NCBI GenBank assembly: GCA_040757335.1
Contig: JBFLXB010000032.1
Location: forward strand, 1-41,628
Length of the DNA stretch: 41,628 bases
From: Nitrospirota bacterium
Lineage (GTDB): Bacteria; Nitrospirota; Nitrospiria; 2-01-FULL-66-17
Direction of reading: 5' to 3'
Shown: one piece after another, positions 16,639-26,618 of the stretch
Numbering within the stretch: the stretch's first letter is position 1
How the letters are laid out: each line of letters opens with the position of its first letter
Position numbers and translations under genes: made by a program
The notes under the pieces: model-generated
The model's input: only the letters and a program-made list of their open reading frames with translations
The model's database searches: none
What the model was told of the DNA's origin: nothing

Positions 16639-19284
16639 ATGTGGAGTATCATTCGAAAACTCGTCGGAAGCAAGAACGACCGTGAACTCAAGCGTATTGC
16701 GCCCGTTGTCGACCGCGTCAACGCGTTCGAACCCGCGGTTCGAACGCTGAGCGACGAGGCGCTGAGAGGCAAGACCGTCGAACTTCGCGCCCGCGTGGCG
16801 GCGGGAGAATCTCTGGACGCTCTGCTGCCGGAGGCCTTTGCGGTGGTGCGCGAAGCCTCATCCCGCGTGCTCGGGATGCGCCATTTCGACGTGCAGTTGA
16901 TCGGGGGCATCGTCCTCCACGAGGGAAAGATCGCCGAGATGAAGACCGGCGAGGGGAAGACCCTCGTCGCCACGCTCCCGGTCTACCTCAACGCGCTCGC
17001 CGGCAAGGGCGTTCACGTAATCACCGTCAACGATTATTTGGCCAAACGCGACAGCCAGTGGATGGGGGAGATCTATCGCTTCCTCGGTCTCACCGTGGGC
17101 GTGATTCAACACGATCTCGACGACGCGGCGCGGCAGGTGGGGTACGCCGCGGACGTGACGTACGGGACCAACAACGAATTTGGGTTCGATTATTTGCGCG
17201 ACAACATGAAGTTCGACCCCCGTCAGTTCGTCCAGCGTCCCCTCAACTTTGCGATCGTGGATGAGGTCGACAGCATCTTGATCGACGAAGCGAGGACGCC
17301 GTTGATCATTTCGGGACCGGCCGAAGATTCGACCGAGTTGTATTACAAGATCAACCGGGTCATCCCGTATCTCAAGGCCGAGGTCGACTTCACGATCGAG
17401 GAAAAGACCAAAACCGCGGCCCTGACGGAAGAAGGCAACGCGAAAATCGAGCGGTTCTTGGGCGTCGAGAACCTCTACGACCTCGGCAACATGTCGTTGG
17501 TCCACCACGTACATCAAGCGCTCCGCGCCCATTCGCTGTACAAACGCGACGTGGACTACGTCGTCAAAGAGGGCGAGGTCATCATCGTGGACGAGTTCAC
17601 CGGCCGCTTGATGCCGGGTCGGCGTTGGAGCGACGGTCTGCACCAGGCGGTGGAGGCCAAAGAAGGCGTTAAGATCGCCAACGAGAACCAAACGCTCGCC
17701 ACGATCACGTTTCAGAACTACTTCCGGATGTACAAGAAACTCAGCGGGATGACGGGAACAGCCGACACCGAGGCCGCCGAGTTCGCCAAGATCTACAACC
17801 TGGACGTAATGGTCATTCCGCCGAATCGAGCCATGATTCGGGCCGACTACGCGGATGTCGTCTATCGCACCGAGCGGGAAAAGTTCGCGGCGATCGTGGA
17901 AGAGGTCGTGGAGTGTCATCAGCGGGGCCAGCCGGTGTTGGTCGGTACGATTTCGATCGAAAAGTCCGAACGCCTTTCGGCCCTACTGAAAAAGCAGGGG
18001 GTCAAACACGCGGTTCTCAACGCCAAGTTCCACGAGAAAGAAGCGGAAATTATCGCGCAGGCGGGGCGAAAAGGGACGGTGACCATCGCCACCAACATGG
18101 CCGGCCGGGGCACCGACATCCTGCTCGGCGGAAACGCCGACTTCCTGTTCAAACAGGAGAGCAGCCGCGACGCCGACCTGTCGGCGCCGGAGCGCGAGGC
18201 GGAACGGACCCGCCTCCGTGAGCAGTTGCGAGCCGCGTGTGAAGCCGAAAAACAGGAGGTCGTGTCGCTCGGCGGGTTGCACATCATCGGCACCGAGCGA
18301 CACGAGAGTCGGCGCATCGACAACCAGTTGCGCGGTCGTGCGGGCCGCCAGGGCGACCCGGGGTCCTCGCGGTTCTATCTGTCGCTCGAAGATGATCTCT
18401 TGCGGATTTTCGGATCCGAGCGGATCTCCGGCTTGATGCAGCGGCTGGGAATGGAAGAGGGGGTGCCCATCGAGCACCGGATGGTCACCCGCGCCATCGA
18501 AACCGCCCAGAAGAAAGTCGAAGCCCACCATTTCGACATTCGCAAACAACTGCTCGAGTACGACGACGTCATGAACAGACAGCGCGAAGTGATCTACGAA
18601 CAACGCCGCCAGGTGCTGGGCGGGGAGCCGTTCGTGGACGACATCAACGAGATGGTGGACGACTTGGTGGCCGGGACCGTGGCGCAGTATTGTAATGAAG
18701 CGAGTTACGAAGAGGCCTGGGACCTCAAAGGACTGGCCGATGCGTTGGGCGCGCAGTTTTCGCTGCCGTTCGATCCGGCGTCGTGGAAGGACTCGGGCGT
18801 TGACGGGATCAAAGACGACGTCCTCACGCGGGTGCGGGAGGCCTACCGGCGCAAAGAGCAGGAGTTCGGTCCCACGGTGCTGCGCGAGTTGGAAAAGGCC
18901 GTGATGCTCCGGGTGATCGACACGCACTGGAAAGACCATCTTCTGACCATGGACTACCTCAAAGAGGGGATCGGGTTACGAGGGTACGGACAGAAGGATC
19001 CCTTGGTGGAGTATAAGCGGGAAGGGTACGATCTGTTTGTCGGACTGATCGAACGCATCAAAGTCGATGCCGTCGGGCACTTGTTTCGGATACAGGCGGT
19101 CCACCCCGATGTGGCGGCGGCCCCGCGGTCGCTCCCCCGTCAGGCCCCCACGATCCTGAGCGCGCCGGGTCCGGCGCCGACCAACTCTCCGACTCCCGCC
19201 GCCCGCGAACGCGAGCGCGTTGGGCGGAACGATCCCTGCCCCTGCGGAAGCGGCAAGAAATACAAAAAGTGTCACGGCGCCTGA
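16639..19284 (+). CDS. secA: Preprotein translocase ATPase SecA
   Basis: An 881-residue SecA motor that drives Sec-dependent export, full length for the family. Visible motifs are Walker A MKTGEGKT (101-108), [15 protein letters not shown], the DEAD-type [20 protein letters not shown] (about 208-228), [28 protein letters not shown], the helicase motif VI-like [25 protein letters not shown], and the helical scaffold [14 protein letters not shown]. The C-terminus ends in a SEC-C zinc site, C867, C869, C878 and H879 ([16 protein letters not shown]). Prepilins, the secretin and the other exported proteins in this window would use it or the SRP branch. The downstream cyclase gene begins at or just before its stop. 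Confidence 0.97.
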
Positions 19285-19289
19285 CGCGC

Positions 19290-20450
19290 GTGAAGCCCGC
19301 TCGGCCCCAGCTTGCCGCGGAGCTGAAGCGGGAGGTGGCCGTCCTTCGAGCGCGTCTCAAAGACAAGGGCCGGGAGCTGGCCTTCTTCATCAATACCGCC
19401 AAAGCGCTGACCTCCACCCTTGACCTCGACAAAGTCCTCGATGTGATTCTGGAGCGAGCCCGCCGACTCATTCCCTGCGAGCGGTGGGCGCTGTTCCTGG
19501 TCGACGAAATCGACGGTCGTCGGGAGCTCAGGCCCCACCGCGCGCTGCTTCGGGGCCGGGCTCGGGATGCCCGCGCGGTTCCGTGGGGGGTCGGACCCAG
19601 CGGCTGGGTCGCACAACACGCCAGGCCGCTGCTGATCCAAGATCCTCGCGTGGCGCTGCCGACCGGATTGCGAAACTTGAAACGTTCGGGCCCGAGGCTG
19701 CGGTCGCTGCTGGCGATTCCGATCGTCAACAAGCGCAAAACGCTCGGGGTGTTGGAGTTGGTCAACCGGTTGGACGGCCGTCCGTTCGACGTGGCCGACC
19801 GCGACATGCTGATGCAATTGATGGGTCAAGCCGCGATCGCGATCGAGCGCTCTCAGCTCTATCACCGCAAAGAGGAGTTGTCCATCCGGGACGACCTCAC
19901 CAAGCTGTTCAACTTCCGGCACCTGGATCAGGTCCTGGACAATGAGATCCGGCGGTGCATCCGCTATGGGTCGGTGCTCTCGGTGATTTTCCTCGATCTG
20001 GACTATTTCAAGGTCGTCAACGACCGGTACGGCCACCTCATGGGGAGCCGGGTGTTGGTGGAGGTCGCGGAGCTGCTCATCCGAAATCTCCGCGACGTGG
20101 ATATCATCTCGCGGTATGGCGGCGACGAGTTCGTGGTGGTGTTGCCCGAAACCGGGTTGCGGACCACCTTCGCGATCACCAAGCGGCTGCACCGCGCGTT
20201 CCATCGTCACGAGTTTCTGAGCGCGGAAGGCCTCAACGTCCACCTCACCGCGAGCTTCGGCATTGCGGGGTTTCCGGACCACGCCCGCAACAAGAAGGAC
20301 CTGATTCGATTGGCGGACCAGGCGATGTACGAGGCCAAATACGGCGGCCGGGACCGCATTTGTGCGGCCACGCGTCGCGCCTCCGCGCTTCGCGCGCCCG
20401 GTTCCCTGTCGGGGAAGCGGCGCCCGATCAGAAGGGTTGCCCAGCCGTGA
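19290..20450 (+). CDS. GAF-GGDEF diguanylate cyclase
   Basis: A 386-residue cytoplasmic protein. An N-terminal helix (about residues 1-35) leads into a GAF domain (about 40-190; LIPCERWALFLVDE, VPWGVGPSGWVAQH, SLLAIPIVNKRKTLGVLELVNR), a linker (YHRKEELSIRDDLTKLFNFRHL) and a GGDEF domain. The active site is GGDEF (277-281), and an I-site RxxD (R268-D271) lies exactly five residues before it, so it should make c-di-GMP and be product-inhibited. GTG 19290 follows the secA stop by 5 bases; GTG 19269, inside secA, is an alternative in the same frame. Neither has a good ribosome-binding site. Its 3' end overlaps the convergent gene by 23 bases. The GAF ligand is unknown. Confidence 0.9.
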   Translation: MKPARPQLAAELKREVAVLRARLKDKGRELAFFINTAKALTSTLDLDKVLDVILERARRLIPCERWALFLVDEIDGRRELRPHRALLRGRARDARAVPWGVGPSGWVAQHARPLLIQDPRVALPTGLRNLKRSGPRLRSLLAIPIVNKRKTLGVLELVNRLDGRPFDVADRDMLMQLMGQAAIAIERSQLYHRKEELSIRDDLTKLFNFRHLDQVLDNEIRRCIRYGSVLSVIFLDLDYFKVVNDRYGHLMGSRVLVEVAELLIRNLRDVDIISRYGGDEFVVVLPETGLRTTFAITKRLHRAFHRHEFLSAEGLNVHLTASFGIAGFPDHARNKKDLIRLADQAMYEAKYGGRDRICAATRRASALRAPGSLSGKRRPIRRVAQP

Positions 20451-23070
20451 GATAGAAGTGGGGTTGCTGCTCCTCGGCCTTGAGCGCTTCGTCGACATTG
20501 ACAGGCCAGGCCACGTCGAGCCTCGTGACGAGCGGATACAGGCCCAAGACCTCGTGGGTAAGGCGGAGGCCCAAACCCACATCGTACAGGAACTGGATGA
20601 AATTGCGGGGCTCACCCACGGTTCCCGCGTCGGCGAACACGGCGGCCTGAAGGCGGCGCAGCAGCGTCAGGCCCCAGACATTGGTTCCCATGTCGCGTAC
20701 CAGCGGGTGTCGGTACTCCAGCGAGGCCAGGAGGACCGACTCGCCGGACACGCTGCCCGGTGAGTACCCCCGCATCCCACCCGAACCCGCCAGGTCGAAC
20801 TGGCGGGCGTCATGAAATCCCCCCGCGGACTGGCCGATCGTCCCGCGCGCCGCGACTTCGTGTAAGGTGGCGAACGACCACTGATGTCGAGCGTCCAACT
20901 GGACCTTCAACGCGCTGGGGTACTCACCGCCCGACACGCGTTGGGCGAACGTGGTCGTCAGGGCGGAGTACGGGATCGCTCCGAAGAAAATCTGTTGGAT
21001 CTCCTCGGAGTATACCAGCGGCGTTTCAGCGTTCGAAATGACGTGGGCGAGTTGAACCGATGTGACCGTTTCGGGCAGATCTCCCGGCGTGATCGGGATC
21101 AACCGCCGGCTCGCCTCCACCCCCACAGAAACGGATTGACGCGTCGTGTACGAGAAAACCGGTTGCTCGAAATCGTGGGTCGCCGCGATGCCGCCTTGCG
21201 TCTCGATGTCGTCTTTGGAGTAGCGAAGGCGCAGGATATTGTGCTCGTCGTACCGTCGCTGGAAGTACGCGCTGAGGTCGTAGCTGATGTTCTGGGTCTG
21301 AAAGTCGTAGCTGATCCCGGGCAATTTTTCGAGGATGAATTTGATGGCCGGTGGCGTCCGATTGTTGAACCGGTTCGGGTCGCTGGTCTTGTGGTCCGGG
21401 TCCAGTTCGATCACCTTGACCGGTGAACGGGTCACAAATGTTTCTTGGAACTCGGGTCCGTACGACAACCAGGTGGTGGTGAGCGGAGGGCCCTCGCCCA
21501 GCCTTAGGTTTACCGCGACCGGTTCGATGCCTTCTCCGGTCTTGGTCAGCGCCAAGGTCGTATGATGCCCGTCGGCACGGGTTTCGCGCTGGACCGACGC
21601 CACCGAGAAGTCGGTGGTGGGATTGGTCGTCAACCACTGGGAATAGAACCAGTCGAGGTCTCGGCCGGTCTCCTCTTGGGCCACCTCACGAAACGGGCGG
21701 GGGGCGCCGCCCACCACGCGTTCGGTGTACCGTTCCAGCACGGTATTCACCGCCTCGGTCCCGATCAGCGCCGACAGCTTGAAGAAGACGCTGGACCCGT
21801 CGGGTCGCCGATTGTTGAACACCGCGAAATCCTCTCGGGGCAAAATCGGGGTCGTTTCTTTGAAGTACACCTGACGGAGGGGGAGGCGGTTGGAGTACAG
21901 GATCTGGTCAACGATCGGAATGAACGCGACAGGCTTGAGCAGCCCCAGCAGGTTCGGCGGCCGCCGGAAGCGCTCCCGCAGGTAGGCCTGAGTGGTGGCA
22001 TCGGCCAGGCCCTCGAGCACCCACGCTTCTTCGTCGGGAAGTCGGGCGCGCCAGAGCGCGAAATAGAGCCCCTTGGCCACTTCGGCCTCGTGGTACTTCT
22101 TCAGAGGGGCGAACACTTTGTAGGTGCGCGTCGCCAAGAAGATCACACCGGGGTCCGGTGACACCACTTCTTGATGAAGGTAGACCTCCGCCACGCGGAT
22201 CTCATTGAGCGCGAGGTTGCCGAATTGCTCGCGAAAGAAGGTCAGGCCTCGACGGAGCGCCGCGAGTACGGGCGGGGTGTAGGCCCGATCGTGGGGAAGA
22301 AACGCGTAACGGATGCGGGTCGAGTCGTGTTGCTCCACCCGTTCCTGGTAGTAGGGGCTGAGGGCCAACGCCACGTTCACCGCGCGCGGCAGGTGGAGCC
22401 GCCAGCGGCGGTGCGGCGCGCCCGCATCGTCGTCGGCCATGTCCGCGCCCACCACCATGACGTCGCGCGGAGCCAGGATCTGCACGGAGTACTCCGCGGG
22501 GTCCGGCAATGTGTCGAGCGCCCAGTTCCCTTCGCGGAACGCGGGCACGTACGGGTACCAGCCGCCTTTCAGCGCGGTCACATTGTGGAAGTAGCCGAAC
22601 ACCCCGTATTTCTCAGGGATGAAGGTAATGAACGTGAGCTGGAGCTCGATGGAGCCGTTCGGCGGCACGGGGTGCGGGAGGATCGCGTGCGCCACAGTCT
22701 GGGGCGGATGGGCCGGCGGCGCGCCGATTTCGAACGCCACGGCGTCGCCGGTGTCGGCCTGGATGGCGGTCACGGCCATTGAGCCGGGATTAAACGCCCG
22801 CGGATAGATCCGTTCGAGAGCGTCTTTGTCCAGATCGCGGTTCGGTTCGCGGTAGATGTTGGGGTACAGCAAGAACGGGACGTCGCGCAGCGGGTTCTCG
22901 GACCGGTTCGTGATCAGGACCCGTGCGGTGCCGGAGAGGACATGGTCGGTGGGAGAAAAGCGCGCGCTGATGTCGTACCGGACCTGCAGCGACGCGGCGG
23001 GGAGGGGGCTGGCGACCCCGAGCAGCAGGACGGTCGCCACGGCGGCCGGCCCCCACGCGATCCAAACCAT
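20428..23070 (-). CDS. M1-peptidase-like (apparently inactive) domain fused to an Omp85-like outer-membrane barrel
   Basis: An 880-residue exported protein. Residues 1-26 look like a signal peptide. Residues about 27-500 resemble the M1 aminopeptidase family: an N-terminal beta saddle (YDISARFSPTDHVLSGTARV, LLYPNIYREPN), then a catalytic-like domain (YFHNVTALKGGWYPYVPAF). The zinc motif HEXXH is HEAEV at 327-331, lacking the second His, and no GxMEN motif is present; WVLEGLADA (E353) keeps the position of the third ligand. After a linker (about 510-590), residues 591-880 resemble an Omp85/surface-antigen barrel, with GSGGMRGYSPGSVSGE (762-777), LEYRHPLV and a terminal Phe. It may be a periplasmic binding or chaperone-like module on a barrel. 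Function unknown. ATG 23070 is the only good start. Confidence 0.75.
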   Translation of the reverse strand: MVWIAWGPAAVATVLLLGVASPLPAASLQVRYDISARFSPTDHVLSGTARVLITNRSENPLRDVPFLLYPNIYREPNRDLDKDALERIYPRAFNPGSMAVTAIQADTGDAVAFEIGAPPAHPPQTVAHAILPHPVPPNGSIELQLTFITFIPEKYGVFGYFHNVTALKGGWYPYVPAFREGNWALDTLPDPAEYSVQILAPRDVMVVGADMADDDAGAPHRRWRLHLPRAVNVALALSPYYQERVEQHDSTRIRYAFLPHDRAYTPPVLAALRRGLTFFREQFGNLALNEIRVAEVYLHQEVVSPDPGVIFLATRTYKVFAPLKKYHEAEVAKGLYFALWRARLPDEEAWVLEGLADATTQAYLRERFRRPPNLLGLLKPVAFIPIVDQILYSNRLPLRQVYFKETTPILPREDFAVFNNRRPDGSSVFFKLSALIGTEAVNTVLERYTERVVGGAPRPFREVAQEETGRDLDWFYSQWLTTNPTTDFSVASVQRETRADGHHTTLALTKTGEGIEPVAVNLRLGEGPPLTTTWLSYGPEFQETFVTRSPVKVIELDPDHKTSDPNRFNNRTPPAIKFILEKLPGISYDFQTQNISYDLSAYFQRRYDEHNILRLRYSKDDIETQGGIAATHDFEQPVFSYTTRQSVSVGVEASRRLIPITPGDLPETVTSVQLAHVISNAETPLVYSEEIQQIFFGAIPYSALTTTFAQRVSGGEYPSALKVQLDARHQWSFATLHEVAARGTIGQSAGGFHDARQFDLAGSGGMRGYSPGSVSGESVLLASLEYRHPLVRDMGTNVWGLTLLRRLQAAVFADAGTVGEPRNFIQFLYDVGLGLRLTHEVLGLYPLVTRLDVAWPVNVDEALKAEEQQPHFYLTAGQPF

Positions 23071-23105
23071 GCCGGGAGTATAGCAGGAGCCCAGCGAGCG
23101 GTCGA

Positions 23106-23117: not shown

Positions 23118-23154
23118 ATCGGGTGCGAAACTATGCAATGGGCGACGCTGCGCC

Positions 23155-23184
23155 TTGCGCGGCGTCAAAGCCTTCTGTTAGAGT
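23155..23184 (+). promoter_or_regulatory. Candidate promoter of the FIST gene
   Basis: TTGCGC (23155-23160), an 18-base spacer and the extended -10 TGTTAGAGT (23176-23184) lie 17 bases before the ATG at 23202. This supports that ATG over an upstream in-frame one at 23133. Confidence 0.4.
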
Positions 23185-23201
23185 GGTCGCCGAGATTCGC
23201 G

Positions 23202-24383
23202 ATGACATCGTACGGAGCCGGAGTTTCCCTTCAAAGCGACGCGGCCGCAGCGGCCAAAGAAGCCTGCGCCCAGACGTCGCCTGATCCGGATGTTCCGGTG
23301 GATCTCGCCCTGGTGTTCGTCTCGCCGCACCACGCCGAGCGCTTCGGCGATGCGGCGTCGGTGGTTGCGGAGCACCTGAGGCCGCGAGTCCTGCTGGGGT
23401 GTACCGGAGAGGGCATCATCGGCGATGATCGGGAAATCGAGCGTCAGCCTGCGCTCGTGGTGTGGGCCGCGCGGCTTCCCGGCGTGACCCTGTCACCCTT
23501 TCATGCCACCTTCCATCAAACCGACGAGGGGATCGGGGTGTCCGGCTGGCCGGCCGACATGCCCAACGATCCGTCCACCGTGGTCGTGCTGTTGGCCGAT
23601 CCGTTTTCGACCCCCGGCACCGAGTTCCTCGCCTTTCTCGACCAGCAATGCCCGGGCGCCCGAGCTGTTGGCGGGATGAGCAGCGGCGGCGGTGCGCCGG
23701 GCGAGAATCGATTGCTTCTGGGAGAGGCCGTGGTCTCCGAGGGAGTCGTGGGTGTGGCGCTCACCGGTGACGTGCCGATCGTGACCGTGGTGTCCCAGGG
23801 GTGTCGACCGGTGGGCGGGCGATTTCTGATCACCCGCTCAGAGGGCAACATTATCTATGAACTCGGGGGGCGGCCGGCGTTTGTCTGCCTGCAGGAGATG
23901 TACGCGTCGCTTCCGCCGGCCGAGCAGGAGATGGCTCGGCGGGGCTTACACATCGGCGTGACCATCAATGAAGCCAAATCGCAGTTCGACCGGGGAGACT
24001 TTCTGGTCCGCGGTTTGGTGGGCGCTGACCAACAGGAAGGCAGCTTGGCGATCGGGGACCTGGTCCACGAGGGCCAGACCGTGCAGTTTCACATCCGGGA
24101 TCGCGAGACCGCGAGCGAAGACCTCAGCGCGCTGCTCGAAACGCAAGCGCACGCCCCGCAGCGGCTGATGCCCGAGGCTGCTCTGCTCTTCAGCTGCAAC
24201 GGGCGGGGCCGCCGGTTGTTCGGACGGCCACACCACGACATCACCATGGTGCGCTCCCACCTCGGGGACGTCTCGATCGCGGGGTTCTTTGCCCAAGGCG
24301 AGGTGGGGCCAGTGGGCGGAAACAATTTCCTGCACGGATTTACCGCCAGCGTCGCGATCTTCGGTCGCCCGGTGGGCGGCTGA
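23202..24383 (+). CDS. FIST-domain signal-transduction protein
   Basis: A 393-residue soluble protein made of FIST_N (about residues 20-215) and FIST_C (about 220-370), thought to be a small-molecule (perhaps amino acid) sensor module. Typical segments are LGCTGEGIIGDDREIE, GARAVGGMSSGGG, VVSEGVVGVALTG, VVSQGCRPVGGRFLITRSEGN, FLVRGLVGADQQEG, ALLFSCNGRGRRLFG and IAGFFAQGEVGPVGGNNFLHGF. It has no output domain, unlike the FIST proteins fused to kinases or cyclases, so it may signal through a partner. It is a single gene with its own promoter. ATG 23202 was chosen from the promoter position and the fit of the N-terminal domain. Confidence 0.87.
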   Translation: MTSYGAGVSLQSDAAAAAKEACAQTSPDPDVPVDLALVFVSPHHAERFGDAASVVAEHLRPRVLLGCTGEGIIGDDREIERQPALVVWAARLPGVTLSPFHATFHQTDEGIGVSGWPADMPNDPSTVVVLLADPFSTPGTEFLAFLDQQCPGARAVGGMSSGGGAPGENRLLLGEAVVSEGVVGVALTGDVPIVTVVSQGCRPVGGRFLITRSEGNIIYELGGRPAFVCLQEMYASLPPAEQEMARRGLHIGVTINEAKSQFDRGDFLVRGLVGADQQEGSLAIGDLVHEGQTVQFHIRDRETASEDLSALLETQAHAPQRLMPEAALLFSCNGRGRRLFGRPHHDITMVRSHLGDVSIAGFFAQGEVGPVGGNNFLHGFTASVAIFGRPVGG

Positions 24384-24415: not shown

Positions 24416-25936
24416 CTACCACCGATACACGGTCGCGTATTTGTCTTCCAGGTAGTTCAGGAAATGATCGGGGTTGAGAGGTTCGCCGGTCACTCGCACC
24501 AAGAACTCTTCAGAAGAGTACATTCGGCCCCACCGGTGGAGGCGGTCGCGCAGCCACTCGCGGAGCGGATCGAGCCGCCCCTGTTCGATCAGGGTGGGCA
24601 GGTCCGCGATGTCCCGCAGGGCCTGTTGCCACAACTGGGCGGCGTAGAGATTGCCCAACGTGTAGGTGGGAAAGTACCCGAACGCACCGTGTGCCCAGTG
24701 GATGTCCTGGAGCACGCCTTCGCCGTCGTGGGTGGGGCTGACCCCCAGCGTGGCTTGCATGGCCGCGTTCCACGCCTCGGGGAGGTTGCGAGGCAGCAGG
24801 GTCCCGGCGATCAACGCCAGCTCCAACTCGAAACGCACGATGATGTGAAAGTTGTACGTCAATTCGTCCGCTTCGGTCCGGATCAACGACGGCCGGACCA
24901 CGTTGATCGCGGCGTGGAACGCGTCCAGCGACACGGCCGACAGGGCGTCGGGAAACGTTTCCTTCAACAGTGGGAAGAAGTACCGCCAGAATTCCGGTGA
25001 TCGCCCCACGCAGTTTTCCCACAGGCGCGACTGGCTTTCGTGAACCCCGAGCGACACCGCCTCTCCGAGCGGCGTGCCCCAGTACGTCGGGTCGAGCCCC
25101 TGGTCGTACAACCCGTGTCCGCCCTCGTGAAGACAACTGAAGAGACACGTGGCGAGATCGTCGGCCGCGACGCGGGTGGTGACGCGCACGTCGGTGGGAT
25201 GAAAGCCGGTGGTGAAGGGGTGGGCCGATTGATCCAACCGGCCGCGGGTGAAGTCGTATCCCATCGCGTCGAGGACCACACGTCCGAACCGGATCTGGCG
25301 GGCCAGATCGTACGGCCCGGGCGGGAGCGGGGCGATGCGTACCGAGGCGCCTTCTACGCGACGGAGCAACGGTAAGAGCCGGGCCTTGAGGTCGGTGAAC
25401 AGGGCGGCCACGCGCGCGGTTGTCATGCCCGGTTCGAACGCATCCAACAACGCGTCGTAAGGCGTGTCGGGATACCCGAGGAGCGCGGCTTCCTCGCGTT
25501 TGAGCGTGACGATCTGCTCCAGCAACGGGAGAAATCGGCTGAACCGCCGCGTCTCCCGCGCCTCCTGCCACGCGTCTTGCGCGAGCGCACAGGTCTTCTC
25601 GAGCAACGACACGAACGCGGTGGGGAGGCGCTTGGCCCGTCGATAATCGCGGAAGACCTCGCGCAACAGGGCCCGGGCCGCGGGCTCCGGCTCCGGGTCG
25701 AAGATCGCCCCGGTGTCCAGGTCCATCCAACGCGCGAGCAGGTCCTCGGTCGTCGATGAGACGAAGCGCTCGTGCGCCGCGCCCTGCAGCGCGGCCAGCG
25801 TGTCGGCTCGCGTCGCGGCGCCGCCGCGCGGCATATACGTTTCCTGGTCCCACGACAGCACCGCGGCGGCGCTGTGCACATGCGCGATTTCGATCAGATG
25901 CGCGGTGAGCGGTCGGAGGTCGGCCAGGGTCAGCAC
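24416..25936 (-). CDS. Carboxypeptidase Taq (M32 family metallopeptidase)
   Basis: A 506-residue cytoplasmic zinc carboxypeptidase, normal length for M32. The zinc motif HEGGH is at 270-274, with the third ligand in HESQSR (H299, E300), together with SWDQETYMPRGGA near the N-terminus, a GTPLGEAVSLG segment and the helical end DIHWAHGAFGYFPTYTLGN. It should remove C-terminal residues from peptides and so works in protein turnover. The open frame extends upstream to 26065, but that part overlaps the esterase gene; GTG 25936 lies 13 bases after the esterase stop and gives the family length. It forms an operon with the esterase. Confidence 0.93.
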   Translation of the reverse strand: MLTLADLRPLTAHLIEIAHVHSAAAVLSWDQETYMPRGGAATRADTLAALQGAAHERFVSSTTEDLLARWMDLDTGAIFDPEPEPAARALLREVFRDYRRAKRLPTAFVSLLEKTCALAQDAWQEARETRRFSRFLPLLEQIVTLKREEAALLGYPDTPYDALLDAFEPGMTTARVAALFTDLKARLLPLLRRVEGASVRIAPLPPGPYDLARQIRFGRVVLDAMGYDFTRGRLDQSAHPFTTGFHPTDVRVTTRVAADDLATCLFSCLHEGGHGLYDQGLDPTYWGTPLGEAVSLGVHESQSRLWENCVGRSPEFWRYFFPLLKETFPDALSAVSLDAFHAAINVVRPSLIRTEADELTYNFHIIVRFELELALIAGTLLPRNLPEAWNAAMQATLGVSPTHDGEGVLQDIHWAHGAFGYFPTYTLGNLYAAQLWQQALRDIADLPTLIEQGRLDPLREWLRDRLHRWGRMYSSEEFLVRVTGEPLNPDHFLNYLEDKYATVYRW

Positions 25937-25949
25937 GAAGGTTTCGGCG

Positions 25950-26618
25950 TCAGCGGGTGAGCAGGGGGCGGAGAATCGGCCAGATGTGGTCCACGATGAC
26001 CTGATACCCCTCGGCATTGGGGTGAATGCCGTCGCTCTGGTTGAGCGCGGAATTCGCGGCGACACCCTCGAGAAAAAACGGGATCAGCGACAGGCCGTAG
26101 CGGCGGGCGAGGTCGGGAAAGATCATCGCGAACGCGCCCGCGTAGTCGTCGCCGTAATTCGGAGGCATCCGCATGCCGGCCAGGACCACCGTCACTCCGG
26201 CCGCCTGAAGCCGTTCGATGATCTGGGCGAGATTCTCGCGGGTCCGCTCGAGCGAGAGGCCCCGCAGCCCGTCGTTGGCACCCAACGCCAGAATCACGAT
26301 GCGGGGCTGCGCTTTCAGGACCCAATCGACGCGCCGGAGTCCGCCGGCCGTGGTGTCGCCGCTGACTCCGGCGTTGACCACCCGGTAGTCGAATCCCTGC
26401 TCGCGAAGGCGGCGCTCCAACCGGGCCGGGTACGCGTCGCTGACCGGCACCCCCAATCCTGCGGTCAGGCTGTCGCCGAACGCCACGAGCGTGGGGGGCG
26501 CGCCCACCCGTTCATCGGCCCGGGCTGTTCCCGCCGTGGCGTACAGCAGCGCCCCCAAGACCGCGGCGGCGCCCAACGCCGCGCGGTGGGCCGGAGAGTG
26601 ATCGCGCAACCCGCGCAT
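25950..26618 (-). CDS. tesA: TesA-like GDSL/SGNH esterase (lysophospholipase/thioesterase)
   Basis: A 222-residue exported hydrolase with a signal peptide (about residues 1-34, ending TARADE). SGNH blocks are all present: GDSLTAGLG (Ser), VSGDTT (Gly), LGANDGLRG (Asn) and DGIHP (Asp, His). It would cleave acyl esters or thioesters in the periplasm. It is divergent from an ABC transporter of the YbbA/YbbP type, the same gene association as tesA-ybbA-ybbP in E. coli. It is followed by the M32 peptidase gene after 13 bases. The start at 26618 lies in a divergent promoter region of about 50 bases. Confidence 0.9.

Follow-up and report, generated by a model that had tools for sequence, protein, structure and literature searches.

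Omp85 proteins have been sorted into ten Omp85/TpsB subfamilies, none of which has an M1-like N-terminus; the word 'peptidase' appears nowhere in that survey, the WD40 group included (Heinz and Lithgow, 2014; PMC4104836). The best-studied fusion of an enzyme to an Omp85 barrel is PlpD, in which a patatin fold whose Ser-Asp dyad is active is combined with a single POTRA domain. PlpD was first described as self-secreting, with type Vd surface display (PMC4104836), a view that has been overturned: its patatin N-domain is periplasmic, the protein dimerises, and phospholipids change when it is lost (PMC11116518). BepA, a periplasmic metallopeptidase, helps LptD at BAM (PMC8423444). No M1–Omp85 fusion was found in the literature searched, and the Manganitrophaceae genomics paper mentions neither peptidases nor Omp85 proteins. 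The original prediction, which knew of no described function for a fusion of this kind, is therefore in keeping with the literature, with the qualification that PlpD is itself a described enzyme-on-Omp85 protein and that related barrels with an intact gluzincin-like domain occur in the same phylum. We accordingly regard the fusion reported here as a further variant of Omp85 fusions, not a categorically new system.

The gene and its surroundings

The window, by which we mean the whole 41,628-nucleotide stretch that was analysed, contains a genuine gene for this fusion. The strand had not been given previously; it is the minus strand, and the coding part (20431-23070, plus the stop) specifies 880 aa, hereafter the window protein. 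The features of the gene are collected in the table, together with related proteins from other genomes.

Table. Features of the M1-like/Omp85 fusion gene, and gluzincin-like relatives
Feature	Position	Strand	Basis
M1-like/Omp85 fusion gene, 880 aa	20428..23070	-	ORF; 24-member family alignment
Putative signal peptide, residues 1-25 (PLPAAS after a hydrophobic helix)	22996..23070	-	sequence; model helix 6-19
M1-like domains I and II, residues 26-484, with degenerate site H327-E328-A-E-V331 ... E353	21619..22995	-	VIA Z 27; hhalign E 8e-21; site table
M1-like domain III, beta sandwich, residues 485-560	21391..21618	-	model strands 486-556; M1 alignments reach 574
Conserved linker from domain III to barrel, residues 561-575, SDPNRxNNRxP	21346..21390	-	alignment; model
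Omp85-type barrel, residues 576-880 (both models with 14 strands)	20431..21345	-	Pfam PF01103; TamA/BamA Z 18-20
Omp85 loop-6 motif GGMRGY and next residues, 764-773	20752..20781	-	R767 and G768 invariant, 24/24
FADAGTV, the FxDxG motif, residues 812-818	20617..20637	-	F812 and G816 24/24; D814 22/24
Promoter-like site near start codon, TCGACC-17-TATACT, TG preceding second hexamer	23077..23105	-	scan, 1 found vs 0.5 expected; weak
Gluzincin-like/Omp85 proteins	L104:1071-3992, L105:864-3800, L106:708-3833, L110:2874-5885

The TATACT of the promoter-like site ends about 6 bases 5' of the ATG, a spacing at which transcription might yield a leaderless mRNA. A FIST-domain gene (23133-24383, plus strand) is the divergent neighbour, followed by a gene for an M32 carboxypeptidase of the Taq type (24416-26065, minus strand), which served below as a negative control. 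The convergent neighbour is a GAF-GGDEF gene (19269-20450, plus strand), itself preceded by secA. The genes near the family loci include secA, the GAF-GGDEF gene, nuo genes and others; we read the secA/GGDEF and nuo neighbours as chromosomal context. Neither a partner gene nor a widely conserved operon was found around the family loci, and the fusion gene is solitary. An Rfam scan of the window gave no match.

A degenerate M1 module

Whole-genome searches yielded a family alignment of 24 full-length or nearly full-length sequences, 26-58% identical to the window protein. A Pfam search, one of the checks suggested for both halves of the protein, gave no M1 match in the window protein, and Peptidase_M1 was matched weakly in 6/24 relatives (best E 0.0033). 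When the family profile was aligned by hhalign with 11 M1-like proteins having an intact HExxH, E was 8e-21 across 463 columns, compared with 0.17 for the unrelated M32 zincin; at the level of sequence profiles, the M1 homology of the N-terminal module is therefore well above chance. The PepN-like sequence of the same genome gave E 7e-4 in a profile–profile comparison with the family.

The AlphaFold model of the full protein (mean pLDDT 79.9, pTM 0.75) points in the same direction, with VIA Z scores of 24-27 to ERAP1, IRAP, PepN and LTA4 hydrolase (LTA4H; Z 24). The alignment with ERAP1 (Z 27.4, 450 residues, rmsd 5.8) spans residues 26-574, and all three M1 core domains are present in the predicted structure. 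The proposal that the N-terminal half is M1-like thus holds by both routes. The three-domain fold is common to the family, the M1 aminopeptidases (PepN, ERAP1) and Nitrospira M1-like proteins of 730 aa (hhalign E 8e-21 to the latter group); the barrel, however, occupies the place of helical domain IV of PepN and ERAP1. Foldseek matches of the model include the TFIID chain 7edx_B, which we take to be TAF2. TAF2 is an inactive M1 fold that works as a scaffold, although it is a eukaryotic transcription factor without a membrane domain.

We then considered the zinc site, which in the window protein reads HEAEV (H327–V331), with E353 lying within WVLEGLAD. Across 30 sequences spanning the active site, the first zinc His (H327) is kept in 30/30 and the third-ligand Glu (E353) in 29/30, whereas the position of the second zinc His is never His (0/30) and always Val, Leu or Ile. 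The catalytic Glu position (E328) varies among E, D, N, A and R, and position 422, the counterpart of the catalytic Tyr, holds R, P, A, S, M or Q in 29 sequences (Tyr 0/29). GxMEN, whose absence had been remarked upon in the original prediction, is missing from the window protein and from the aligned segment of its relatives, but this carries modest weight because it is missing also from the comparison set A2, in which HExxH, the Tyr and the third Glu are all invariant. With the second His, the Tyr and GxMEN all gone and the catalytic Glu variable, peptidase chemistry is, judged by these residues, lost throughout the family. That the site was lost by chance in a single genome is ruled out, as the loss is family-wide. 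One genome (G020) has two copies of the gene, and the second paralogue (L099:7548-10178) has HRMRIARG, with Arg in place of the catalytic Glu, which, read as a motif, is further evidence of relaxed chemistry.

The suggestion of a dead peptidase is on these counts stronger than originally put, although the near-universal retention of H327 and E353 leaves room for a remodelled metal or ligand site. Together with D388, Y392, R399 and E413, each invariant in the family alignment (24/24; E405 is kept in 23/24), these residues argue for a conserved site of some kind, either structural or ligand-binding. We consider it unlikely that they make a new enzymatic or metal-binding site, given the variation at E328 (D, N, A and R) and an aliphatic residue always replacing the second His. 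Residues 391-420 are modelled at a pLDDT of about 57-63 and belong to the strongly conserved N-domain stretch 380-420; their low confidence would fit an interface with something absent from the model.

The barrel and its relatives

The sole Pfam match in the window protein is Omp85 (PF01103; residues 700-880, E 7e-7), which is found also in 21/24 relatives. Folded alone, residues 557-880 matched TamA and BamA with Z 18-20 across 250-276 residues, and an Omp85-like barrel ending in Phe, as expected for the C-terminal third, is supported by sequence and by model. The barrel has the Omp85 fold and retains the loop-6 RG(Y/F) motif, the FxDxG motif and the C-terminal Phe. Taken together, profile comparison, structure prediction and the 24-member family bear out the central claim, that of an inactive M1-type fold joined to an Omp85 barrel.

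The barrel as modelled nevertheless differs from those of BamA and TamA. In both predicted structures, full-length and barrel alone, we count 14 strands as against 16 for Omp85; five strands follow loop 6, as in BamA, which places the shortfall before loop 6. We regard this count, taken from models, as suggestive only. No POTRA was matched by Pfam in the window protein or its relatives, and because domain III and the first barrel strand are only about 15 residues apart, the model leaves no room for a POTRA domain between the M1-like module and the barrel. At least one such domain is demanded of Omp85 proteins by Hanson (2024), but not by Heinz and Lithgow (2014). Pfam likewise detected no patatin domain in the window protein or its relatives and no PD40 propeller in the window protein.

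The lower strand count in the models raises the alternative that the barrel has lost insertase function and is a mere membrane anchor, the M1 module being a partner-binding scaffold in an envelope process other than protein insertion. Inactive M1 folds do act as scaffolds elsewhere, TAF2 being the example; the RG(Y/F) and FxDxG motifs, however, are invariant or nearly so, and we think this arrangement improbable.

The same genome encodes BamA, a multi-POTRA Omp85 protein and a TamA-sized Omp85 protein adjoining a YhdP-like gene. Because BamA and other Omp85 proteins are already present, the fusion is probably an accessory Omp85 protein. A dead copy of BamA is ruled out as its identity, BamA and the other Omp85 proteins being separate genes, and the genome's BamA is only weakly related in sequence to the family barrel (hmmsearch E about 0.001). 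At L103 (G000:C20:35000-38500), a 451-aa ORF with an Omp85 match lies beside a 473-aa ORF with a YhdP-like match, an arrangement like that of a TamA/TamB-type pair; near L103, another Omp85 match sits in a separate open frame of 132 aa.

Outside the family, the best barrel matches include Nitrospirota proteins of 970-1060 residues (L104, L105, L106 and L110). Their N-terminus is a gluzincin-like domain, so called from its motif and without a Pfam peptidase match, with HEYAH or HEYTH intact and an EG(L/Y)AT segment after it. The two that were scanned, L104 and L105, have a PD40 propeller ahead of the barrel. Nitrospirota members of the WD40/PD40-Omp85 subfamily are thus among the nearest barrel relatives; unlike the window protein, those compared here combine an intact HEYAH/HEYTH motif with a propeller that separates the barrel from the peptidase-type domain. 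Also close to the family barrel (E about 1e-21) are barrel-only Omp85 proteins of about 400 aa (L107:2754-3932 and L108:2192-3403). A peptidase-type domain on an Omp85 barrel is therefore not unique to the window protein's family, and in Nitrospirota such fusions seem to have arisen more than once. Among the barrel proteins compared, site loss is confined to the window protein's family.

Conservation and possible function

A survey of the fusion across genomes, as had been proposed, took in the 98 nearest genomes. Of these, 23/23 from six families (f1, f5, f8, f9, f11 and f13), which belong to its class and include Ca. Manganitrophaceae, carry the gene, as do 0/75 from the other sampled families, the large family f2 included. 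A profile search added more members to the 24 aligned, and all the named ones are Nitrospirota, Ca. Manganitrophaceae and Ca. Troglogloeales among them. This pattern would fit a gene that is core to one sub-lineage and has additional members in other parts of the phylum, and its presence in all 23 genomes from the six families indicates a maintained function. Scanning 84,980 genomes with a single sequence returned no relative, and a profile scan found 14, all Nitrospirota; the latter relied on one 10-residue motif, which divergent members in other phyla could escape. Plasmid records gave no match. In one relative, L031 (G116:C411), the copy is broken by an in-frame TAG.

What might this function be? 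The reading that we tentatively prefer, while placing it somewhat short of probable, is that of an accessory Omp85 outer-membrane protein in which a complete but dead M1 fold replaces POTRA as a non-catalytic binding or scaffold module. The protein would be exported by Sec and its barrel would lie in the outer membrane; by analogy with PlpD and its patatin domain, the M1 module would sit in the periplasm directly beneath the barrel. The former substrate cleft would no longer cut; it would bind a polypeptide or partner protein and present it to the barrel, and so help, in the manner of a chaperone or scaffold, to assemble some component of the outer membrane or the surface. The evidence on the M1-type fold (residues 26-574), family-wide peptidase loss, an Omp85 barrel with signature motifs, lack of POTRA and conservation (23/23) establishes or strongly supports those parts; the accessory status of the protein and the parallels with TAF2, PlpD and BepA also favour this reading. 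A chaperone-like role on a translocator would be plausible. Against it stand the lack of a partner gene or conserved operon, the partly low model confidence of the conserved stretch 380-420, and the retention of H327 and E353, which exceeds what drift of a dead site would give.

PlpD cuts both ways, since this fused Omp85 protein appears to act in lipid homeostasis and not in protein assembly. A PlpD-like role, in which the periplasmic module binds or extracts lipids where the Omp85 barrel thins the membrane, draws also on the presence among the structural matches of LTA4 hydrolase, an enzyme with an M1 fold and a lipid substrate. We nevertheless judge it an unlikely alternative, as no lipid-binding feature was identified in the window protein and, in addition to the lost second His and Tyr, the catalytic base is variable. 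Far less probable still is a self-secreting, type Vd-like protein with the M1 module shown on the surface: PlpD was the precedent for such display until that view was overturned, and a folded module of about 60 kDa hardly fits through an Omp85 pore.

A bolder extension of the preferred chaperone-like reading, which we consider rather doubtful, would make the family the eleventh Omp85 subfamily: a dead M1 peptidase would have inherited from POTRA the task of receiving substrates, on a barrel shortened to 14 strands, a conversion of peptidase to chaperone at the outer membrane. If true, this would be set in a phylum that also holds gluzincin-Omp85 proteins with intact HExxH, and the family would form a natural pseudoenzyme series beside these relatives. 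The lineages in which this is probably a core gene include the manganese-oxidising Ca. Manganitrophaceae, and the literature found contains no study of how these bacteria assemble their outer membrane. The best-studied Omp85 proteins take their substrates via POTRA, and a conserved family with a dead peptidase in the place of POTRA would put to the test the idea that the barrel can work with a different peptide-binding module.
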